Positions 4,088-24,903 of a stretch of 24,903 nt of DNA are shown piece by piece. Source of the DNA: a virus. The position numbers and the translations under genes are program-made. How positions within the stretch are numbered: the stretch's first letter is position 1; each line of letters begins with the position of its first letter. A model generated the notes under the pieces. That model saw only the letters and a list, made by a program, of their open reading frames with translations. It made no database searches and was not told the origin of the DNA. The stretch is from positions 1 through 24,903 of IMG/VR virus record IMGVR_UViG_3300007609_000085, one strand, 5' to 3'.

Positions 4088-5092
4088 ATGCTCGGCTTTT
4101 CCCCATTAGCTTCTGCGCCCCTCGCGGATGATGGGGCGATAGCCGCCGTTCCAGACGTGACAGTAACTGTCACAGGCGTCGCGGCCACGGGTGACGTTGG
4201 CACGCTCAACGTCACGGGCACCGCCAACGTAGACGTCACAGGCGTCGCGGCCACAGGCGAGGCGGGCTCCGTTGAAGCTGGAGGGGTTACTTTTGCCGAC
4301 GTTACGGGCGTTGCGGCCACAGGTGCCGTTGGCACGCTTAACGTCACGGGCACCGCCAACGTCGACATCACAGGCGTCGCGGCCACAGGCGCGGCAGGCA
4401 CGCCCAACGCCACGGGCACCGTCACCGCCGCAGTCACAGGCGTCGCAGCCGCGGGCGAGGCGGGCTCCGTTGAAGCCGGAGCGATTACTTTTGTCGACGT
4501 CACAGGCGTCGCGGCCACAGGCGAGGCGAGCTCCGTTGAAGCTGAGACGATTACTTTTGTCGACGTCACAGGCGTCGCGGCCACAGGTGCCGTTGGCACG
4601 CTCAACGCCACGGGTTCGGCCAACGTAGACGTCACAGGCGTCGCGGCCACAGGCGAGGCGGGCGCCGTTGCAGCCGGAGCGATTACTTTTGTCGACGTCA
4701 CGGGCGTCGCGGCCACCGGTGCCGTTGGCACGCTCAACGCCACGGGTTCGGCCACTGCCGCAGTCACAGGCGTTGCGGCCATAGGTGCTGCTGGCACGCT
4801 CAACGCCACGGGCACCGCTAACGTCGACGTTACAGGCGTCGCGGCCACAGGCGCGGTGGGTACTGCCGAATCCTTGGTGTCCATCGACGTCCCGGTTACA
4901 GGCGTTGCGGCCATAGGCGCGGTTGGCACCGCCAGCGTCACAGGCTCAGCCAACGTCAATGTTACAGGCGTCGCGGCCACAGGACGCGTGGGACAAGTTA
5001 TCGTCTGGGGTCCAACCATACCTGACCCGGGCACAGTGTGGACTGACGTCGATCCGTCTGATACAACAATCTGGACACCCGTCGCAGCATAA
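4088..5092 (+). CDS. Virion repeat protein with 13 x 22-residue repeats
   Basis: This encodes 334 residues with Shine-Dalgarno GGAG (4078-4081) six bases upstream. After about 25 residues it consists of 13 consecutive 22-residue units with the core VDVTGVAATG. The second half of each unit is of two kinds: a -GTLNxTGxAN type and a -GSVEAGxITF type. The C-terminus is a Trp-rich cap (VIVWGPTIPDPGTVW, then TTIWTPVAA), a feature I associate with short tail or fibre proteins of marine phages. The Ala/Gly/Thr/Val repeat suggests a stacked beta-strand or fibrous shaft. A long open frame also exists on the opposite strand purely because the repeat lacks stops. Function as a fibre shaft or decoration is inferred from location. 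Confidence 0.75.
   Translation: MLGFSPLASAPLADDGAIAAVPDVTVTVTGVAATGDVGTLNVTGTANVDVTGVAATGEAGSVEAGGVTFADVTGVAATGAVGTLNVTGTANVDITGVAATGAAGTPNATGTVTAAVTGVAAAGEAGSVEAGAITFVDVTGVAATGEASSVEAETITFVDVTGVAATGAVGTLNATGSANVDVTGVAATGEAGAVAAGAITFVDVTGVAATGAVGTLNATGSATAAVTGVAAIGAAGTLNATGTANVDVTGVAATGAVGTAESLVSIDVPVTGVAAIGAVGTASVTGSANVNVTGVAATGRVGQVIVWGPTIPDPGTVWTDVDPSDTTIWTPVAA
4163..4993 (+). repeat. Thirteen tandem 66-bp repeats (22 codons)
   Basis: Units start every 66 bp from 4163; the 13th starts at 4955 and is partial. The core nucleotide string GACGTCACAGGCGTCGCGG recurs with small changes. Units of the EAG/ITF kind are numbers 2, 5, 6 and 8; the rest are of the GTLN/TAN kind or variants. The mixed order suggests unequal recombination and copying of units. 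Confidence 0.95.
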
Positions 5093-5102
5093 GGCCGAAA
5101 CC

Positions 5103-6290
5103 ATGCCCAGCACGTACACAGACTCCGGTATCGAACTCATTGGCGACGGCGAGCAGTCGGGCACGTGGGGCGATACGACCAACACCAACCTGCAGATTCT
5201 TGACCGGATGCTTTCGCAAGCGGGGGCGATCTCGCTGTCCGGCACGACGCACACGCTGACTGTGTCAGACGGAGTTCTCTCGGATGGCCAGTATGCTGTT
5301 CTGGTGTTTGGCGGCAGCCCGACGGGTACTAACACCGTTACGATCTCGCCAAACGACGCACAACGCGTCTTCATTGTAAAGAACGGCTCCGGTGAGTCCG
5401 TGATCCTTAGCCAAGGCAGTGGGGGAACTGTGACAGTGGCCGACGGGCGCTCAGCCATTGTCTATTGCGACGGGGCGGGGTCGGGCGCTGCGGTGCTGGA
5501 CGTGTCGAGCGCGTTTGTTACACCTGCCATTGAAGACATTGGGGCGCTCACACCGACCGACGGAAACTTTATCGTGGGTAACGGAACCACGTGGGTTACC
5601 GAGAGCGGGGACACGGTGCTCGCATCGCTTGGTGTGACGGCAACAGCTGCCGAGCTTAACCTTCTTGATGGCGTGACGTGGACGTTGACCGACTACAACA
5701 CTCTGACCGCCACGGCTGCCGAGCTCAACGCCCTTGATGGCGTGACGTGGACGCTGACCGACTATAACACCCTGACCGCCACGGCTGCCGAACTGAATTT
5801 GCTAGATGGTAAAAGCCTGTCTGGGTCGGATGTTGAAATTGTTACCGGCACCGCGGGTACCGCTGGGGATATCGTGCAGTGGAACGCGGACGGCGATCTT
5901 GTGTCTTACGGCGCGGCAACGCAGGCTACATCGGCTTGGGAGGCAGGTACAAGCACCACAGAGAGCCTTGTCAGCCCAGCCAAGGTGAAGGCGGCGGTTG
6001 ATACACTCGCTCTGACGATTGGTGTTGGTCAGACTTGGCAAGACGTTTCGGCAAGCAGAACTGGCGGAGGCACTGCTTATCAAAACACAACTGGAAAACC
6101 GATTATGGTTTCCATACAAAGCGTCGGCGGGAACATTGACGTTTCTAGTGATGGTACAAATTGGGTAGAGCTGTTTTTCATGTCTGGTGACAGAACCATA
6201 CCTCGGGGCGCTCAATTTATTGTCCCAAATCTCCATTACTATAGGCTTAGAACTAGCACTAACATAATCAATTGGGCAGAGTTGAGATAA
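5103..6290 (+). CDS. Tail fibre protein
   Basis: This encodes 395 residues from the ATG at 5103, chosen because MPSTYTDSGIELIGDGEQ is the conserved start of this fibre family. AAGG (5091-5094) lies eight bases upstream. An in-frame extension back to 4923 would overlap the previous gene and is not credible. Residues 1-130 form the conserved virion-attachment domain (GTWGDTTNTNLQILDRM). Residues 179-237 carry 23-residue TATAAELNLLDG repeats typical of trimeric fibre shafts. The WEAGTSTTESLVSPAKVKAAVD segment precedes a C-terminal beta domain beginning GVGQTWQDVSASRTGG, which is found as the tip of many phage fibres and is the likely receptor-binding part. GC drops in that tip region, which fits modular exchange. 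Confidence 0.85.
   Translation: MPSTYTDSGIELIGDGEQSGTWGDTTNTNLQILDRMLSQAGAISLSGTTHTLTVSDGVLSDGQYAVLVFGGSPTGTNTVTISPNDAQRVFIVKNGSGESVILSQGSGGTVTVADGRSAIVYCDGAGSGAAVLDVSSAFVTPAIEDIGALTPTDGNFIVGNGTTWVTESGDTVLASLGVTATAAELNLLDGVTWTLTDYNTLTATAAELNALDGVTWTLTDYNTLTATAAELNLLDGKSLSGSDVEIVTGTAGTAGDIVQWNADGDLVSYGAATQATSAWEAGTSTTESLVSPAKVKAAVDTLALTIGVGQTWQDVSASRTGGGTAYQNTTGKPIMVSIQSVGGNIDVSSDGTNWVELFFMSGDRTIPRGAQFIVPNLHYYRLRTSTNIINWAELR
5637..5811 (+). repeat. 69-bp tandem repeats in the fibre shaft
   Basis: Two full 23-codon copies start at 5637 and 5706, and a partial third at 5775. They encode TATAAELNxLDGVTWTLTDY-type units, a shaft motif of trimeric fibres. Confidence 0.9.
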
Positions 6291-6293
6291 CCC

Positions 6294-6935
6294 ATGCGAC
6301 ACATCGACGAGATCATTGTCCACAGCACGGCGACGAGTCCAAACTGGCGGGCTGGGCACCCCACGGCTGACAAGGTGGCAGAGGTGCGTCGCTGGCATGT
6401 CGACGACAACGGCTGGTCAGACATCGGCTATCACTTCCTGATCGACCGGGACGGCACAGTCGCGCCGGGGCGGCCCGTGGCCCGGGCTGGCGCCCACGTT
6501 CGGGGGCACAACGCCACCTCCATAGCGATCTCGCTTTTCGGGGGCCGAGGCTCCTCTGCAGCGGACATGTTCGCAGACAACTTCACCCCGGAGCAAGACC
6601 GGGCCTTGCGGGCCCTCATCACAGAGCTGCAAACAAAGCACCCCGGTGCCAAGAAGGTCAGTGGGCACAACGAGTATGCCAACAAGGCGTGTCCCGGCTT
6701 CAATGCCAAACGCTGGCTCAAAAGCGCGAAGCCTCGCACCTCCCCGGCACAGTCCAGCACGATGCAAGCGTCTGCTGCCTCGATCGCCGGGGCCGCGGGT
6801 ACAGCGGTAAGCGCCCTTTCGGCGCTCGACAGTGTTGCGCAGTATATCGTCCTCGGGTTTGCTGGGGTTGTGGTTGTGGGTGCTCTGTGGATCATGCGCG
6901 AACGTCTGCGCCGCTGGGCGCGGGGTGACCGGTGA
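6294..6935 (+). CDS. Endolysin: N-acetylmuramoyl-L-alanine amidase (Amidase_2) with C-terminal membrane segment
   Basis: This encodes 213 residues. It cleaves the amide bond between N-acetylmuramic acid and L-alanine in peptidoglycan. Residues 1-145 match T7 lysozyme-like Amidase_2. Zinc ligands His10 (IIVHST), His125 (SGHNEY) and Cys133 (KACPGF), with catalytic Tyr46 (GYHF) and Lys131, have the same His-to-Cys and Lys-x-Cys spacing as T7 lysozyme. A Ser/Ala/Thr linker leads to an Ala-rich stretch (about 158-178) and a strong hydrophobic helix at 184-200, followed by the basic end RERLRRWARGDR. T7 lysozyme has no such tail, so this is a membrane-attached or holin-like variant. The GTGA overlap with the i-spanin gene makes a lysis operon. 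No separate holin gene is visible nearby. Confidence 0.92.
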   Translation: MRHIDEIIVHSTATSPNWRAGHPTADKVAEVRRWHVDDNGWSDIGYHFLIDRDGTVAPGRPVARAGAHVRGHNATSIAISLFGGRGSSAADMFADNFTPEQDRALRALITELQTKHPGAKKVSGHNEYANKACPGFNAKRWLKSAKPRTSPAQSSTMQASAASIAGAAGTAVSALSALDSVAQYIVLGFAGVVVVGALWIMRERLRRWARGDR

Positions 6936-7153
6936 TCTTGTCTCGCATATACCGCGCGTTGGCGGCAGTGGGGGCCTTTCTCCTGCTTGTGGGCGCAGCT
7001 GTCCTGAAGATTCGCTTAAACGCGAAACGTGAGGTGGAACGTGATGCCATGGAAGACACGCTGGACCGGGTGCAGAAAGGCCGCGATACTGTGCGCGACG
7101 GTCGTGGGAGTGACCCTGCTGAGCGCCTGCGGAAAAATGAAGGTAAGTGGTAA
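6932..7153 (+). CDS. i-spanin (Rz-like inner-membrane lysis protein)
   Basis: This encodes 73 residues from a GTG that overlaps the endolysin stop (GTGA). There is an N-terminal membrane helix (about residues 9-25, ALAAVGAFLLLVGAAVL) and then a charged, helical periplasmic part (RLNAKREVERDAMEDTLDRV), ending SDPAERLRKNEGKW. This is the usual pattern of short Rz-like i-spanins in alphaproteobacterial phages. It should bridge the periplasm with the lipoprotein o-spanin encoded out of frame within its 3' end, and drive fusion of inner and outer membranes at the last step of lysis. A Gram-negative host follows from this. The GTG start is the only good candidate before the membrane helix. Confidence 0.8.
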   Translation: MILSRIYRALAAVGAFLLLVGAAVLKIRLNAKREVERDAMEDTLDRVQKGRDTVRDGRGSDPAERLRKNEGKW

Positions 7154-7277
7154 CGCCGGCTGCCTCGCATACGGCGAGGCCCGCCTTGCCATGCCACCTT
7201 ATGACACGGTCCCGGGCGGCGCGTGGGGCCTGTGGATAGCAGATACTGACGACCGCATGACGGGGACCTGCAGGTAA
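7044..7277 (+). CDS. o-spanin (Rz1-like outer-membrane lipoprotein)
   Basis: This encodes 77 residues from the ATG at 7044, with GAGG (7031-7034) nine bases upstream; GTG codons at 7029 and 7041 are alternatives. The gene overlaps the i-spanin by 110 bp in another frame, as Rz/Rz1 pairs often do. The signal peptide has basic residues, a hydrophobic core (ILCATVVGVTLL) and the lipobox LLSAC with the acylated Cys at residue 29. The mature part contains Cys residues (AGCLAYGEARL and the final TGTCR) that may form a disulphide. It should be lipid-anchored to the outer membrane and bind the i-spanin. The stop is followed by an intergenic promoter region. Confidence 0.8.
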   Translation: MPWKTRWTGCRKAAILCATVVGVTLLSACGKMKVSGNAGCLAYGEARLAMPPYDTVPGGAWGLWIADTDDRMTGTCR

Positions 7278-11593: not shown

Positions 11594-12030
11594 AGGACGT
11601 AACGACACAACTGCACATGTCGCCGGTTCCGACCGCGGTGTTGGATGTCGTATGGCCCGATGCCAAGGAGCTTTTGGGTATGGCGGTTGATGCCACCCAT
11701 GGTGTCTACGATATTGAAAGTATCTGGCAGGGGCTCATCACTGGCGAATACGCTCTGTGGGTGGTCCTCGACGACGGCACGCCGATTGCGGCGTTGACCA
11801 CGCGTATTTGCCAATACCCCAACGGGCGGGGCTTGGCTCTCGACTGGATTGGCGGCAAGCGCATGGCAGAATGGCTCCCCATGGTGCATGGGGTTATGAG
11901 TGATTATGGCCGGGAGAACGGCTGCACCCACCTCGAAGGCTACGGCCGGAAAGCGTGGGGGCGCTGGCTTGAGAAATACGGGTGGAAGCCGATCTACACC
12001 GCGTACAAAATGGAGTTGACCGATGGGTAA
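11590..12030 (+). CDS. GNAT-like protein, T7 gp13-type internal virion protein analogue
   Basis: This encodes 146 residues. The pattern VWPDAKELLGMAVDATHG, then ALWVVLDDGTPIAALTTRI, then the helix MHGVMSDYGRENGCTHLEGY and the end RWLEKYGWKPIYTAYKMEL, is that of a small GNAT acetyltransferase fold. The canonical acetyl-CoA loop (Q/RxxGxG/A) is not evident, so activity may be lost. T7 gp13 (138 residues) is a GNAT-like protein needed for assembly of the internal core, and the same size and gene order (before gp14-, gp15- and gp16-like genes) is seen here. Shine-Dalgarno AGGTGA lies seven bases upstream inside the preceding gene, with an ATGA overlap. The 3' end overlaps the next gene by 8 bp. 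Confidence 0.75.
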   Translation: MKDVTTQLHMSPVPTAVLDVVWPDAKELLGMAVDATHGVYDIESIWQGLITGEYALWVVLDDGTPIAALTTRICQYPNGRGLALDWIGGKRMAEWLPMVHGVMSDYGRENGCTHLEGYGRKAWGRWLEKYGWKPIYTAYKMELTDG

Positions 12031-13003
12031 AGGTAGCAGCGCGCCGACGTCATCGAACGTCACACAGACTAACCTGCCGGAATACGTCCGCCCGCAGTTT
12101 GAACGCCTGCTTTCGCGCGCAGAGTCGCAGTCGATTACGCCGTACCAGCCGTTCCAAGGCCAGCGGATCGCCCAGCCGGGCACCGACATCAACATGGCCT
12201 ACGACATGACGCGCAACGTGGCTACGAGCGGTGTGCCGGGTTTGCCGCAGGCAACGGGCGCTGTGGCGGGGAACATTGGCCAAGGGCAACAGATAGCTCA
12301 GGGCGCCGACCCGTACCAATTTGACCCCACGCAGACTTTCACCGGGGAAAACGTCGGCCAGTACATGTCGCCGTATATGCAGCAGGTGCTGGACGTGCAG
12401 AAAGACCAAGCGCGCAGGCAGTTTGCAGAACAGGGCGCGGGACGTGCGGCCGAGGCGGTACAGGCCGGGGCCTTCGGGGGTTCCCGTCAAGGTGTTCAGG
12501 AAGCGATCGCAGAGCGCGAGCTGCTTAACCGCATGGCGGACATCCAAGCCACTGGGCAGCAGCGGGCGTTCGAGTCTGCACAGGATGCGTTCGGGGCCGA
12601 TCGGTCCGCCATGTTCGCCCGAGAGCAGGCGCAGGCCGGGGAAGATCAAGCGGCACGCACCCAACAGCTTCAGGCTCTCGGTTTCGTGGGGGATCAGGCG
12701 CAGCAGCTGGTGGGTATGGGCGAGACGGCCCGGGCCGCAGACATACAGGGTTCGCAGCTACTTGAAACGGTCGGTCGGGCCGAGATGGGCCAAGAACAGC
12801 AAGGTCTCGATATCGCCTATCAAGATTACCTGCGCCAGCAAGCGTATCCGGAACAACAGCTACAGCAGTTCTCGTCGATCTTGCGCGGGGTGCCGGTGCA
12901 GCCGGGTGCAATAACAACTGGATACGCGCCGTATAACCCGCTCCAGCAGGCGTTGGGCGCGGGGCTCACCGGGCTCAGCCTTTACAGGGGACTGTCGGGA
13001 TGA
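12023..13003 (+). CDS. Internal virion protein, gp14-like ejection protein
   Basis: This encodes 326 residues with GGAG (12012-12015) seven bases before the ATG, inside the preceding gene. After a Ser/Thr-rich start come PEYVRPQFERLLSRAE and YQPFQGQRIAQPG, then the conserved YMSPYMQQVLDVQKDQARRQ, and about 130 residues of Gln/Ala-rich helical sequence (AIAERELLNRMADIQATGQQ and similar), a coiled-coil-like stretch. The last part (PVQPGAITTGYAPYNPLQQ and then GAGLTGLSLYRGLSG) is a Gly-rich hydrophobic tail. This layout recurs in marine phages in place of T7 gp14, which leaves the virion to form the outer-membrane part of the DNA conduit. Homology to T7 itself is not visible; the analogy is by order, size and composition. 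Confidence 0.78.
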   Translation: MGKGSSAPTSSNVTQTNLPEYVRPQFERLLSRAESQSITPYQPFQGQRIAQPGTDINMAYDMTRNVATSGVPGLPQATGAVAGNIGQGQQIAQGADPYQFDPTQTFTGENVGQYMSPYMQQVLDVQKDQARRQFAEQGAGRAAEAVQAGAFGGSRQGVQEAIAERELLNRMADIQATGQQRAFESAQDAFGADRSAMFAREQAQAGEDQAARTQQLQALGFVGDQAQQLVGMGETARAADIQGSQLLETVGRAEMGQEQQGLDIAYQDYLRQQAYPEQQLQQFSSILRGVPVQPGAITTGYAPYNPLQQALGAGLTGLSLYRGLSG

Positions 13004-16062: not shown

Positions 16063-19000
16063 ATGGCAGAGATTGTTGTACCGGGACCGGTAAGTGGGCG
16101 TCGCTACGGCTTCATGATTTCCGGGGACACCCCGACCGTCGACGAACAGATGCGGATTGACGCTGCCATCCGCCAGCAGGAAGACCAATACGCCGGGGAG
16201 TTCGAGGCGCAGTACGGCGACCGGCCAGCGGGCACGGAAGCAGGAGTGCTGGATTACCTCGGCGAGTTCCCAAAAGGTCTCGGGCGCGGCGCGGTCGGCA
16301 TCGGCGAGTCTGCCGCCCTTGGTATCGCATCGCTTCTGCCTGAAGAATACGAGACACCGACGCGCGAGGCGATCCGGCGCGGTGCGTACAGCCTGAAGCC
16401 GCAGGTGGACATCGGCCTCGAAGAAACGGTGTCTGGCAAATTCGGCGAAGCTGTCGGTTCGTTCCTGCCCCTTCTAGGCGCTTCAGCCCTCCCCGGCGGT
16501 ATGGGCATTGCCGGCGGCCTTGCTGTTGGCGCTGGTGCAGGTGAGGCGAGCGAGCGGGCCCGCGCCGCGGGTGCCACTGTTGAAGAACGTGCACAGGCTC
16601 TCCCTTTCGGCGCCGCCGTGGGCGCATTGGAGCTGGTCCCGATCAAGTTCATGAAAGCGCTGGGCCGTGATGGCACGTTGTCTGTTGCCCAGCGGATCGC
16701 GCGCATCGCCGAATCTGCCGGGGTGGAGGGCGCCCAAGAGGCTGCCGCCGAAGTGGCCCAGAACCTCATCTCCCAGAACATCTACAACCCCGAACAGGGC
16801 ACGTTTACAGGCACCGGCGAGTCCCTCGGGTATGGCGCTGGCGTTGGCGCGCTGGTGCAGGGGCTTATGGATCTGGCAATCCCGGGCCGGAGCCGGGCAC
16901 CCACGGTCGCTCCAGAAACGGACGAGACGCGGCTTTTGCCGCCGCCCAGCCAAGAAGAAATCGACGCAGTTTCGCCACAACAGGAGACCCAAGATGTTGA
17001 ACCGTCTGGCCTGCCGGACCCTGCAGGGGATATCACGACAGCTACTCTTGACCAGCTTGGCGTGCCGAAAGCTGCACCGTCGTATAAGCGCATCCCAACA
17101 ATCGCAGACCGCGAAGACCAGCTGCGCATGTTGTCAGACTTCGCAAACGCCACCAAAGACCCACGCGCAGAGGCGAATGTCCGAACCTTCATTGAGCAGG
17201 CAAGGTCGGCCGATCTATCAGCCGTATCCCCAGAACTATCTGACTTTGGAGACGTCGGAGCTCGAGATGGCGTTCGAGGTGATGTTGGACCCGAGCGGGG
17301 AGATACCGGAGAAGTTGCAGCACCTGACGGAACAGGACTGGATGTGCCTAGAGGGCGTACTGGACCTCCTGCTGGAACAGTTGGAACGCAACCCACTGCA
17401 CTGACCGAAAGCGAGGCGTTTGAGCTTGCCGCGCAGCAAGCTGCTGAAGCCCGCCCGTTCTCCGGGCCTCTTTCAGACGCTGAGTACCGTGCTCTGTCTT
17501 CCGGCGATAAACAGAGGTACCTTCGGGAAGTAGGACTCCCGCCGCTCCCCGAGGTGGCTGAGCCGCCCGCTCAAGCAGAGATGGGTTTTGAGGCTGAGCC
17601 CACTGCCGACGCCCTCAAGAAGGCGCGCGAAGCCGTGCGAGAGTATGCCAAGGCCAACCCAGCCCTTCGGGTGACTAAAGGAGACATCGACAAAATCGCC
17701 GGGCGCGTCGCGCAAACCGGCCAGACTGTTGATGAAGCGGCAGCGGATATTCTGGCGCAGGCGGAGGCCGTAGGCCGCACTGGGCCGCGGGCCGAACCGG
17801 CACCAGAGGCAGAGCCTATCCCCGGCTTCGACGAGATGCCGGACGAGGCGGCGCCCAAAGCGCAGAAAGACATCACCGCCGAAGAGATCGAGTCCCGCGC
17901 CGCGGCGGCGCCGGAGCCGGAGCCCACGCCGGAGCCGGAGCCCACGCCGGAGCCCACGCCGGAGCCGGAGCCCACGCCGGAGCCCACGCCGGAGCCCGAA
18001 GGGCTCACTACTGCCGAAATGGCGCCGGTTGACCGCAACGTCATCCCGGGACGCGCCACCGGTGCCGCGGGTCAGGTTATACCCGAGGGTATAACGCCCG
18101 TGCCGGGCAGGGAGCCGGAGCTACGCCCCACCACGGAAGGCGAGGCCGAGATCAACGCGGCAGTGAACGCGGTCCGGGCACGCAAGGCGCAGCAAGACAG
18201 GACGGCCGACGCAAATGCCGCCGCGGAAATTCGCCGGAAATTCGCCGGAAATTCGCCAGAGCTGCAAGAGTTCACCCGGGAAGAGGTTGTCGCCGACCCC
18301 GACAGGGACATCACGTCCGTCGAGGACAAGCAGGCCGTCTTGGTCCTGCTCGACAAAAAGTTCACCAAACGGGAGAAAACTTCTACGAACCCTGAGTGGG
18401 CTGCACACGAGTATTTCCGCAAGCACGCGGATGCCATGACCGCACTCGACACGATAGCCTACGACGCTATCGCCGCGCCTACGAAGTTCGCCAAAATCAC
18501 CGACGACATGAGCCCCGGAGCCAAGGAGTACTACAGCCAGACCGGGCGGCAATGGGGCACTTCGGCGGGTAAGTGGGTGCTGGACAACCTGAGCCGGGAC
18601 GCCCGGCTGGCGGTGTTCGAACGGCTGGACTTCTATCGCCCCGAGACCAACAAAGCGGCGCAGCGCGCCGTAGCCGCCGATCGTGACAAGATGGTTGAGC
18701 GGGGTCGCACCTACCGCGAGTACATGGGAGACCAGACAGGCGATTACGTCGGCGTTACTCCCGACACAGAAACTGCACAGGAGCTGGGTTTCGGCACTGA
18801 AGACCTTGGCGGCCTCGCAGCGGATTTCTCCCCCACCGCAGCGCTCGACATGCCGATGCACCCGCAGGTGGTCCGTGCGTTCATGCGAGGCGATGTCAAC
18901 GCTGCGCTTGACGGTATCATCGCTACTGCAGGCTCTCCCGAGGCGTCCAAACTGGCCGCCCAGCTGCGGCCGTTCGTGCAGAACGTCACGCTCCGGTCCT

Positions 19001-22000
19001 TCACCCCGGAGCAGATGTCTCGGATCAGCGAGGTGTTCCGCGGCGGGCGCCGGACCCCCGCAGCGGGGGTGTATATCTCCCGGTACAACGAAGCCGATCT
19101 GCAGGCGGCCGAGACCTATGCACCCGAGCGCGTCGCCATGCGCCGGGAGCTTGGCGGGTCCGTCATCCTCAACAGTCAAACTGGCTTCACACCGAGCACG
19201 TTTCTGCACGAGCTGATCCACGTGGCGACGATCGCCACGCTGGACAACAAGGCGCACCCGCTGACCAAACAGGTTGAGACCCTGCTGACCAAGTCCCGAG
19301 AGATCATCCCTATCAGCGAGAACGGCTTGCTGAACCGGTACGAGTTCGTGTCTGAGGCCATGACCAACCCAGCGTTCATTCAGGACTTGGCCAAGATCGA
19401 CGTCGGCCTCGGCAAGGAGAAGTTCACGCTGCGGCAGCGTATCGTGCACGCACTCGCCAACTTCGTGCGTCAGGTACTCCGCAGGCCGCAGAAGAAGCTC
19501 GGCACGGTGAAGACCGAGATCGACCAGATGTTCGACGACCTGCTGGCGCCCGAGCCGTCACAGCGTGGTGTGGGTTCGCTCTACGAAGCGGCCTTCCGCC
19601 CCAACGGCTACCGGGACAAGATGAACAGCATGAAGGACCGGATCGTCGAAGCCACGCCCGGGAACATGCAGGAGCTCGAGACGCTGGGGCGTCAGGTGTT
19701 CACCGACCCGGCAATGCTCAAGGCGCGGGACTTGACCATCCGCAGTAGCATGGGGATGCAGTACGTCGTTGAGAACGCGGCGAAGTATTTCCCCAGCGCG
19801 CCCAAACTCTACGAAGTTGTCAACAAGCGGCAAGCGGAGCAAAACCGGCTCACCGAAGAAGTCGACGAGACCGTGGCACCGATCGAGACCTACTTGAAGG
19901 GCGTCGGCCCCGACGGGGTGCAGCGGTTCACCAATATGATGACAGAGGCCAACCGGTTGGACGTCGACCCGCGCAAGCCTCGGTCAGAGTATGACCAATT
20001 CAAGCTGGAGTACGATGTACTGGACGCTACAGGGGACGTCGTGGAGACGAAAACGGAACGGTTCCTGACGCGGGAGGCGCGCGCCGCGCGCTATAAGACA
20101 CTGCGGAATAACCCCAAGCCGAACCGGTCAAAACCCAGAAACACATACGACCCGACGGATGACAAGAACGTGGACCGGCTGGAGGCACATGCCCGGATAT
20201 CGCGGGAGTACAACAGCGGCAGTTTCGGCCCGGAGGGGCGCGCTGCGTTCAACCGGGCCTTCGGCATGCACCGCGCGCAACTTGCGGAGCTAGGCCCGAT
20301 CATCGACGCACGGCTGGACGCTATGCTCCCCGGGCAATCCACAGCGCAGCAGCGTGTGTACAAGAAGTTCTTCGCAAAGATGCGGGCTGAAAAGCTGCTG
20401 GACATGTACATGCCCCTGCAGCGAGAGGGTGACTTCGGCCTGTCCTACGTTGCATATGAGCCCCTGACGAATAGCGTGGAGCCGAAAAAGCACCACTTCT
20501 CGAGTGCGCGCGTCCGCAACATGGCAATCCGGTTTCTTCAGGAGGAGCAGGCGCGGAGCCCCGACTCCAAGATCGACGACATCACGTCGTTCGACGCGGC
20601 GGATGACCCGGTGCGGAAACAGCGGCCGCCCATGGATTTCATTCTGGCCCTGCTGAACAAGATCGAAGGCAGCGGGCAGCTCGGCGACCCGAAAATCGCC
20701 GAGGAAGTGCTGGACCTATATTTTGAAGCTATCCCGGAGAGTTCGTTCCTGCGGACTTTCGAAGCCCGCAAGGGCGTGCGGGGGTTTGAGTTAGACATCA
20801 CCCCTCTGGAGGAACTTCTGAACCAGACGCGTTCTGCACAGGACGTCGTCGCCAACATCAAGCGCGGCGGCATGCGGACCGCATCGGCGCTTGCGGACAT
20901 TAAGTACAAGACCGAGGCGGAGACGCTCCTACGAGACCTTAAAGAGGAAGGAAATCGCTTTATAAACGAGGTCAACCCGCAGAACCCCGACCCCCTCGAG
21001 GCTGCGGCTAATCAGAGCGAAGCGAGTATGTACCTCAACATCCTGACCGACTACGCCGACAAGGCTACGTTCCGCCGGGCCAGCTTCTCTCGCGACCTTA
21101 ACGCGCTTGGGTACACCATGTTCCTCGGCGTGAACGTGTCGACTGCCTTCCTGTCTTTGGCCGGCGTAGTCAATTTCTTGTTCCCGATGCTCGCCCCGAA
21201 GTATGGTGCCAGAAACGCCCTATCGGCGTTCGGCGCGGCGTCTCGTATTCTTGGCCAGTCCGGCGGTAGCCGCATGGTTAGCCGGATCGGCGAGGACGGC
21301 AAACCCGAGCGGGTGAAGAAGAAAATCTTTGCCTACGACATGTCGATGTCCAACCTAGACTACACCCAGCCCGAAAACGAGTGGCTCAAGCCACTGTTTG
21401 AGGCAGGGGAGCTTGTGGGTGCTTTTACCCGGTCAGCGGCACAAGACAGCATAGATGCGACCCGGGCCCGCAGTATAGCCCAGAAGATCGCCGCATGGGC
21501 CGGCTTCCTGCAACACCACCTCGAACGCTACGTCCGGGAAACAAGCATGGGCGCCACGTACCTGCTGGAGCTGTACAAGAACATGCCGCAGCGGAATACC
21601 ATGAGCTTCAAGCAGTTCCAGAAGCAACTGCGTGAGGGTCGCATCGCCGTGCCGGAGGCACTCGGCAAGGCCGCCGCGACCGAAGCCCTAAGTCTGTCGG
21701 ACAAGGTGAACGGCAGCATCTACGCGGCCACGGGGCCCCTGTGGTCCATGGGTAACTGGACGTCCAACGTCTACCTGTTCCGCAGATACCCGCTGGCCAT
21801 GCTCAACCTGCTTGGCTACACACTGAAGGAAGCCCTCAAGGGTGCGTCGGCGGAAGACCGTCGGATTGCGCGCATGCAGTTCGCTGCCATGACGGGCAGT
21901 CTCGGCATGCTAGGCGGTATCGCAGGTCTGCCGGGGTTCTATATGGTCGAGGCCATGTACAACTCGTTCAAGGACGACGAGGACGAAGACTTCGAAACCA

Positions 22001-22845: not shown

Positions 22846-23014
22846 CCACACGCATCTTCCACCCGCGACGGGCGAATATGCCGCCCGCCTGCTTCAGTGC
22901 TTCCGTGGTGTTGATGCAGGGCAGGAACACTGACGACCCCACCCGCATGGCATCCCAGTCCACAGCGATCAGTACGCCGTCCGGACCGACCTGATCAAGT
23001 GTCAGAACTCCCAT
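22793..23014 (-). CDS. Small conserved hypothetical phage protein
   Basis: This encodes 73 residues from the ATG at 23014 on the minus strand, with GGAG seven bases upstream; a GTG at 23032 is an alternative. It overlaps the last 20 bases of the replication gene in another frame, so it is coupled to it. The sequence has GVLIAVDWDAMRVGSSVFLP, then a helix with ALKQAGGIFARRGWKMRVAI, then EKDLWGVRIWRIA. The alternating pattern suggests a small alpha/beta fold with a basic face (RRGWKMR) that might contact nucleic acid. Small genes of this look follow replication genes in marine phages. Its role is unknown. The terminator at 22721-22746 lies 46 bp beyond its stop. Confidence 0.7.
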   Translation of the reverse strand: MGVLTLDQVGPDGVLIAVDWDAMRVGSSVFLPCINTTEALKQAGGIFARRGWKMRVAIRPEKDLWGVRIWRIA

Positions 23015-24903
23015 TGTCCAGCTCCAGATCACGGCAGTCCACAGCGATGGCGTTCACCGACGGCAGATTGAGCTTCGTGCCCTTGCCAAGCCGAACCCGC
23101 TGGCGAGAGCCGCCCATGTTTTCGAACACGCCCTTCAGAACCGAGTCGTAGTTCAGATATTGCTCGGCGCACCACTCCTTGAACGGCTTCTGCAGCAGAT
23201 ACAGCATCTTGGTATCCGTCTCGTACCGGGCCACCAGCTTGCCACGCGGCGTCTGCTCCGGCACCACAAGGCTGTCCAGACCGTCGCCGCTCGACGTCTG
23301 CCCCCGGCGGTCCTCGGTGCTCTTGATCCACAGAATAGCGCCGTAGTTGTCGGTGACATAGTTGGTGATGTGCGTCTCGACAGAACTGTTGGACTCCAGC
23401 TGCTGGCGCTTGTTGAGGGTGATGAGTTCCACGGCCCAGTCCCGCAGCTTCTTCGGGTCATAGTCCAGCACGCCCAGCTTGTTACCCAGCATGGCCGCGG
23501 CCACGGTCACAGCACCGGTGATGGACCAGAAGCGGTCCTTGGCTGCGAGGCCGGCGGCTTCGTCGATCTGCTTCTGCACCTCGTCGATCAGCTTGGAGAC
23601 CGCGAGTTTGTTCTGCATGATATACTGCACGAAGGGGAGACCGACATGCCCGCAGTGCTTCCCGACCTGCTTCGACAGCGCGTCGGTCTCGGCCTTTTCC
23701 GCAAAGTTGTACGACTGGGCGTGGTACTCGAGAATGCGGTACGGCTCCCCCTCGGCCTGAGCCTTGAGGTTGCGTATCTTGCCCACGAGGGCTTGGTTGG
23801 TGGTGAACCCGCAGCTGGTCTTCCACGGCTTGCCCGTGGTGCGTTCGGCGTTGCTGCCGCTGGACATGCGGCCTTTCTGCTTACCCGTCTGCATCTGGTA
23901 GATGATGTCGGACACGGCCCGGGCGTCGAGGTTGGTCATCTCGTCCCACTGGGCGGGCAGGTTTTTCAGCACCTCAAGCCGGTTCATGCGGAAGTTCACC
24001 GTGTCGCCGGCCTCCATGATCAGCATGCCCGGATCGCCGAATGCAGCGAGGCCGATCTTCTGGGCCGTGGTCTTACCATGGCCGGACCCGTCGCTGTACA
24101 GGGAGAACATGGCCGCGTTGTAGGGCGTCAGTGCCATGAGCGGCGCCGCAAGTGTCAGGCACACCATGAACTGGAAGGGCTCCATGCCGTCCCGGTTGAA
24201 GAAGTTGGCCTGCTCCGACCAGCCCTCCAGAGTGCCCAGAGACTTGAACGCCGGCATGAGTGCCGCGGTCTCGGTGGTCGGTGGGTTGTACTCATGCCGG
24301 TCGGCGAAAATTTCCTTGGACCCCAACACAAAGGACTCCAGCGTCTCGTCATCTGTCCAGCCGAACTGCCTGTGTGCGGTGTCCGCCACCGTGTTGGATT
24401 GCAGGTGTGATACCCACGAGTTTGCATATACCATGATTTTCTCCCATGCTTTCTTGCTGTTCGCCACGACGCCACGCGCCGATAGCACCTTACGAAGTTC
24501 ATCTGAGGACGTAGCCTGACCCAGCGTAACCGTGAACTCCCGAACCCCGTCCCGTGGCAGGTGCAGGCGGGCGACAAGCGCCTCGCCCTCGTCCGCGTCG
24601 TAGACCCGGCGCACAAAGTATAAATCGTTAACATACACACAGTCATCGTATGGGTCGCCGTCGTCGTCCCGCATCTTCACAAACACGCCGCCGCCCCGGC
24701 CTCGGAAGTACGGCTTCGGGAAGTCTGGTATCGTGAACGTCTCGGTCTGGCCTGTCTCGGCGTTCTCGGCCTCGACCGTGCGGTCTTCTTCCCGGTCCTC
24801 AGCCACCTGCATACCCAAGGCGATCGGGGATTTGAACCTACCGCGTAACGGGCAGTCTCCGCACACCCCCGGGTTCAGGTCGTCAAACTTCTCGCATGTG
24901 TAA
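22995..24903 (-). CDS. DUF927-type replicative helicase/primase, N-terminus cut by window edge
   Basis: The frame is open to the right edge (635 residues visible, first complete codon at 24902), so the true start lies outside; the GTG at 24866 is only an internal codon. The visible start has a cysteine cluster, CEKF then VCGDCPLRG and KSPIALG, a zinc motif like those in phage and plasmid primase-helicases. A DUF927-style ATPase follows: Walker A GSGHGKTT (visible residues 272-279, bases 24066-24089) and a Walker B-like AQWDEMTN with Asp320-Glu321. The motif KQKGRMSSGSNAERTTGKPW fits the arginine-rich region of this family. It probably unwinds or primes phage DNA. A primase domain may lie in the missing N-terminus. 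Opposite orientation to the virion genes separates replication from late functions. Confidence 0.82.
   Translation of the reverse strand, partial: YTCEKFDDLNPGVCGDCPLRGRFKSPIALGMQVAEDREEDRTVEAENAETGQTETFTIPDFPKPYFRGRGGGVFVKMRDDDGDPYDDCVYVNDLYFVRRVYDADEGEALVARLHLPRDGVREFTVTLGQATSSDELRKVLSARGVVANSKKAWEKIMVYANSWVSHLQSNTVADTAHRQFGWTDDETLESFVLGSKEIFADRHEYNPPTTETAALMPAFKSLGTLEGWSEQANFFNRDGMEPFQFMVCLTLAAPLMALTPYNAAMFSLYSDGSGHGKTTAQKIGLAAFGDPGMLIMEAGDTVNFRMNRLEVLKNLPAQWDEMTNLDARAVSDIIYQMQTGKQKGRMSSGSNAERTTGKPWKTSCGFTTNQALVGKIRNLKAQAEGEPYRILEYHAQSYNFAEKAETDALSKQVGKHCGHVGLPFVQYIMQNKLAVSKLIDEVQKQIDEAAGLAAKDRFWSITGAVTVAAAMLGNKLGVLDYDPKKLRDWAVELITLNKRQQLESNSSVETHITNYVTDNYGAILWIKSTEDRRGQTSSGDGLDSLVVPEQTPRGKLVARYETDTKMLYLLQKPFKEWCAEQYLNYDSVLKGVFENMGGSRQRVRLGKGTKLNLPSVNAIAVDCRDLELDNGSSDT

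Follow-up and report, generated by a model that had tools for sequence, protein, structure and literature searches.

In phage lambda the o-spanin gene Rz1 lies, in another frame, inside the i-spanin gene Rz and has its own internal start. The phage needs both products; elsewhere spanin genes may also be arranged separately. Overprinted genes of small viruses, for example E within D of phiX174, have been reviewed (PMC8227390), and the overlaps of large double-stranded DNA phages are usually very short, with a median of about 15 nt, or 14 nt for those in the +1 frame (PMC8903798). Phage ShiLan carries a 195 amino acid HNH homing endonuclease, with a GTG start, as a mobile out-of-frame insertion in a methylase gene (PMC11855218). 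Giant DarB-like and polyvalent proteins are thought to be injected (PMC5512222), and gp69 of the Bcep22-like phage JC1, a giant DarB-like protein, was detected in virions (PMC9144972). The searched passages of these two papers mention no nested gene, and a literature search found no report of the nested family described here.

The stretch of DNA analysed, referred to below as the window, is a whole virus record of 24,903 bases. It contains a 6.66-kb gene (Table 1), the host gene, the product of which scored 27.9 bits against LPD39 (cutoff 27) and possesses a DarB-like C-terminal region (phrog_10089, E 4e-34). It has the attributes of a large polyvalent protein, namely LPD domains, a giant multidomain product and a place in a phage late module; among the other host proteins LPD39 was also found in that of locus L007, and LPD38 in those of L020 and L054. 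With LPD39, the DarB-like profile and the adjoining DNA ejection protein homologue, the label "ejection protein" used in the first-pass annotation is a reasonable one. The protein is probably virion-borne, its packaging and injection being suggested by analogy only, with JC1 gp69 found in purified virions. A [hydrophobic]HExxH motif was present in 62 of the 75 hosts that carry the nested gene and have enough downstream sequence. The host protein also contains a linker with Glu-Pro-Thr-Pro repeats (EPTPEPTPEPEPTPEP) at 17900-18050 (plus strand, host frame), which is shared with the host protein of L002.

Elsewhere in the window, a convergent gene with a DUF927 domain (22995-24866, minus strand) extends to the end of the record, and two plus-strand ORFs (4088-5092 and 4923-6290) share about 170 nt, the second of them probably beginning elsewhere than at its listed TTG. 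After an amidase gene (6294-6935), an ORF with an N-terminal membrane segment (6932-7153) overlaps an out-of-frame ORF with a lipobox-like LLSAC (7029-7277), both on the plus strand. This pair looks like overlapping spanins of the Rz/Rz1 type, a second nested-type overlap in the window.

Table 1. Features of the giant host gene, the nested gene and their surroundings in the window.
Feature	Position	Strand	Remarks
DNA ejection protein homologue (phrog_4287)	12023..13003	+	Same module as host gene
Host gene, giant large-polyvalent-type protein, 2219 aa	16063..22722	+	Final gene of structural module
Host "GKD" domain, about 85 aa (LxxLGxxxxxxxxRxIxGKDLxDPxxR...)	16939..17196	+	Window match E 2e-15
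GAGG, possible Shine-Dalgarno for ATG 17177	17170..17173	+	Spacing just 3 nt, weak compared with relatives
Nested +1-frame gene, ATG to TGA, 75 aa (most likely extent)	17177..17404	+	Wholly within host ORF
Host-frame codon-position inversion, host GC3 collapse over overlap	17206..17404	+	Codon composition, recodings
Nested-gene part matched by family profile	17231..17401	+	A32, P44, L50, W55 invariant; C-terminus NPLH
GGAG, 6 bases 5' of ATG 17267 (alternative 45-aa start)	17257..17260	+	
HELIH, zinc-metallopeptidase-like motif of host protein	19207..19221	+	3' of nested gene

We propose that the nested ORF is a real gene missed by annotation, because more than 80 distinct relatives share the exact nested arrangement and are never found alone; the proposal rests on comparison of sequences, and translation has not been observed. 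Across the inverted stretch the host frame encodes a linker rich in G, D, P, T and R, and the codon-position inversion at this point is the strongest within the host gene. Between 17266 and 17406 only 13 of the 47 host codons end in G or C, a recount that reproduced the figure in the first-pass annotation. In 20,000 synonymous recodings drawn with the host gene's own codon usage, the mean was 35/47 and the minimum 23. The same annotation had given 38/45 for the +1 frame; the 38 GC-ending codons were recovered (out of 46), but their diagnostic value was not, since the recodings averaged 38.6/46 and the observed count is expected by chance. An open +1 frame is likewise expected by chance, being retained in 27% of the recodings. 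The nested peptide, by comparison, scored 50 bits against its family profile, versus 6 or fewer in 2,000 recodings. The collapse of host GC3 and the profile score are both far beyond chance. A profile built without the window matched only this ORF within it (E 6e-14, the next match having E 2.1), and this result, together with nested homologues and conservation of the +1 frame, supports the original suggestion of an unannotated overlapping gene. The conditions that the first-pass annotation had set for its own refutation were examined in relatives and did not apply.

The start preferred at first, ATG 17267, is preceded by the canonical GGAG claimed for it, and is nevertheless probably wrong: the conserved domain begins upstream, near 17231, and part of the first conserved helix would be lost. 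The 75-codon frame from ATG 17177 is the likelier gene, because the domain starts before ATG 17267 and because its N-terminus can be aligned with those of the L002 and L018 proteins. The exact 5' end in the window is uncertain, given a weak Shine-Dalgarno (SD) sequence and the absence of a close relative.

Relatives were collected from both directions. Searching with the host protein first gave two distant relatives, one of which, L002, has a homologous +1 peptide at the equivalent place, and a search with a three-host alignment yielded 65 loci. When an iterated profile was run against the complete set of six-frame ORFs, 16 sequences, the window among them, proved to encode the peptide, in each case in the +1 frame within a giant gene. 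Searches with the peptide family alone, made without the host protein as query, returned 14 loci, then 137 relatives (80 of the 137 were kept), then seven loci, some of them already known; blind as they were to the host protein, they brought up nested copies only. The family is present in at least 112 IMG/VR contig loci representing 82 distinct sequences, some contigs having been fetched more than once. In all 112 loci it occupies the +1 frame within an ORF that is 300 or more amino acids long, and among them there was no free-standing copy and none in another frame or on the other strand. Start, stop and amino acids of the +1 frame are all kept in diverged relatives, with a stop at the family end in each of the 82 distinct copies except the contig-truncated L022. 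Scanning of whole records revealed one nested gene in each of 40/40 records that carry it and none in 37 records of host-gene relatives that lack it. A partial second copy, comprising the 3' half with an internal stop, lies near the intact copy in L018 (after 10083; record G041, 1443-1532) and is a probable tandem duplication inside the linker.

No cultured phage carrying the gene was found. The family profile had no match in regions from eight named phages that possess related giant genes, single-peptide searches of named phages with the window, L002, L042, L054, L007 and L117-type sequences gave nothing credible, and searches of genome contigs, whether by host protein or by nested family, gave no match. 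A weak match in phage Simon lies inside a 1200 amino acid ORF, does not belong to the family by profile and was dismissed as chance. In the L028-L057 group, inspection of further +1 ORFs at comparable positions showed them to be R/L-rich by-products of the host frame and not homologous to the nested peptide.

A codon-position flip in one stretch of one contig could also arise if two compensating frameshifts or assembly errors had hidden a +1 stretch that was once host protein. What two such indels would not produce is the recurrence of this +1 arrangement across many assemblies, at 112 loci, always with a start and a stop of its own inside a host frame that remains open. Moreover, the +1 frame stops in every complete copy and so the host cannot be read through it. 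We give this explanation practically no credence and consider it already refuted.

The pattern of substitution within the overlap was examined in 32 independent pairs, using alignments that were guided by the nested frame and had few gaps in close pairs. Differences at nested codon positions 1/2/3 numbered 241/113/377, which by host positions is 377/241/113; the alignable host flanks gave 655/455/1828. The host wobble position therefore accounts for 15.5% of changes in the overlap versus 62.2% in the flanks (Fisher P 7e-121), the nested third position being free and the nested second position, which is the host wobble, constrained. In all of the 22 gap-free pairs the nested protein was better conserved than the host frame over the same bases (mean conservation 0.865 and 0.725, respectively), and in several pairs the nested gene is a conserved island amid host linkers that are unrelated, diverged or gapped. 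As inferred from these comparisons, the nested frame is under strong purifying selection, exceeding that on the host frame.

Nested starts were chosen, partly by SD sequence, among candidates near the head of the domain. An SD core of at least 4 nt at a spacing of 4-10 nt precedes 77 of the 81 inferred starts, compared with 422/7993 (5.3%) of the other ATG and GTG codons in the +1 frame of the same genes; the contrast is somewhat inflated because SD was one criterion in the choice. Most inferred starts fall exactly at the start of the profile, and several copies have an in-frame stop 0-4 codons 5' of the start. The family as a whole thus has its own translation signals; the window copy is among the four SD exceptions (4/81), with one of the weakest ribosome-binding sites. 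These data bear on programmed +1 frameshifting, by which a truncated N-terminus of the giant protein would be fused to the small domain. The frame relation is indeed always +1, and long open +1 frames lie upstream in some copies (174 codons in the window). Such a mechanism calls for an open fusion frame without an independent start, and this is not what was found: SD cores and starts sit at the head of the conserved domain far more often than in the roughly 5% of controls, and the stops just before several starts leave almost no room for a shift. We regard frameshifting as very improbable. Independent internal initiation is the supported route, given the SD cores at starts and the close upstream in-frame stops, as far as can be predicted without having observed translation.

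The nested proteins are 56-77 amino acids long (median 57) and acidic, with a median pI of 4.5. A, P, L and W residues are invariant across the family, and the C-terminus is Q or H in 81/81, mostly as SPL[QH]. The AlphaFold2 model (pLDDT 76, pTM 0.56) has its main helices at residues 26-37 and 52-71, so that the product is predicted, with moderate model confidence, to be an acidic helical hairpin. Pfam and PHROG searches with 13 members found no family match, nor did searches of PDB sequences, PDB folds and BFVD folds with the nested protein find a family or fold; PDB sequence matches near E 0.004 were chance matches to leucine-rich repeats. Neither a signal peptide nor a lipobox was seen when the sequences were read by eye, and the protein does not have the pattern of a membrane or lysis protein.

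In a tree of the host N-terminal domain the nested gene occurs on both deep branches with seven changes, at least three of which are forced by strongly supported branches; the gene is therefore old within this phage group and has been lost or moved several times. It is also carried by hosts with quite different N-terminal regions, and many relatives of the host protein are without it, so not all of them can need a partner of this kind. The giant genes are mosaic: the histories of the N-terminal domain, the linker and the C-terminal part differ (L023/L020, L072/L077, L042/L043 and L080/L020), and identity changes abruptly on both sides of the nested gene. The GKD domain usually lies directly 5' of the nested gene in relatives. 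It was found in 63 of the 131 giant proteins compared, that is 54/81 hosts with the nested gene (it fails in 27/81) versus 9/50 without (P 4e-8, not corrected for phylogeny), an association that is confounded by shared descent. Pfam gave no name for this domain in the four hosts scanned.

Patchy presence, with at least three and up to seven changes on the tree, and recombination around the gene are also what an out-of-frame mobile element would give, and the homing endonuclease hidden in the ShiLan methylase is a precedent (PMC11855218). None of the 13 members searched has an HNH or other nuclease domain, the proteins have only 56-77 residues, there is a single type of site and one copy per record, and no constant insertion boundary was seen in the flanks, which are shuffled linkers. 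A mobile element is accordingly most unlikely. As to origin, the idea that the linker was overprinted on an existing gene has not been borne out, and because no free-standing copy was found among the 112 loci, origin de novo within the linker is at least as likely.

Taken as a whole, the evidence is best explained by a real, functional overlapping gene that specifies a separate small protein, a conclusion we hold with considerable confidence, with translation indicated by conservation and not observed. Ribosomes would start at an internal SD and ATG or GTG site in the +1 frame of the mRNA for the giant polyvalent protein and make a separate acidic two-helix protein of 56-77 amino acids, from a gene in the disordered linker, a site of rapid recombination, that joins the N-terminal modules to the metallopeptidase region. 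Giant protein and partner would share one late message; the partner might act on the neighbouring GKD domain, and nesting would keep the two from being parted while the giant gene is shuffled. The role of the small protein can be inferred only from the strict linkage to that gene: we tentatively suggest, at rather less than even chances, a dedicated partner in the form of a folding, packaging or ejection chaperone or a small virion co-component. The broader proposition, that the family was born within the linker of an injected giant virion protein, is confined to it and is the chaperone or inhibitor of that protein, is a real possibility that still falls short of an even chance; if true, the partner is inseparable from the giant protein while recombination shuffles the rest of the gene.

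The same strict linkage, the downstream HExxH motif in 62/75 hosts and the small, acidic, helical product would suit an inhibitor or immunity-type partner that quiets an activity of the giant protein, such as the metallopeptidase, in the producing cell, and it is believed that the peptidase activity of polyvalent proteins has to be kept under control (PMC5512222). Some relatives, for example L001, possess the same metallopeptidase region without the nested gene, and we consider this particular role unlikely. Many anti-restriction and anti-CRISPR proteins are acidic. With its median pI of 4.5 and neighbouring functions that are anti-restriction-like, the product could instead be an unrelated host-takeover or anti-defence protein situated by chance in a tolerant linker. 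Expression from inside a late structural gene would be late for take-over and no known family or fold was matched, which leaves this proposal unlikely but not excluded. A dedicated partner of the giant protein remains our working interpretation.

How does the family compare with the systems described above? Like Rz1, it is a small gene that lies entirely within a gene of a tailed phage, is read in a different frame and has an internal start of its own. It does not qualify as an embedded o-spanin, which would require a lipoprotein signal with a lipobox: it has no lipobox, signal or transmembrane segment, its host is a giant virion-type protein, and no free copy has been found, unlike spanin genes, which also occur separately. 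With the overprinted genes of small viruses it shares the lack of relatives outside the overlap, consistent with an overprinting origin. The ShiLan insertion is similar in being an out-of-frame gene, with a GTG start, within a stretch over which a large phage enzyme gene stays in frame; a protein of 56-77 residues with no nuclease motif and under strong purifying selection is the difference. The usual overlaps of large double-stranded DNA phages are very short, whereas those of this family measure 171-234 nt, are fully nested and have been conserved across 80 or more distinct sequences. Overlaps that are long, fully nested and conserved are rare in annotated phages of this kind and are prone to be discarded by annotation pipelines. 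In the present case an entire protein family seems to be confined to the inside of another gene while being better conserved than the giant product of that gene, and it provides a deep, alignable data set on the birth and upkeep of overprinted genes in a recombining genome. The host gene itself belongs with the large polyvalent and DarB-like virion proteins (LPD38/LPD39, DarB-like C-terminus), and the family brings a protein of unknown fold into research on these phage-injected proteins. Nested genes as such are already known in phages, as Rz1, phiX174 E and the ShiLan HNH gene attest; what sets this case apart is a new protein family, widespread among uncultured phages, that has been found only as a nested gene, placed in the linker of a giant virion gene subject to recombination.
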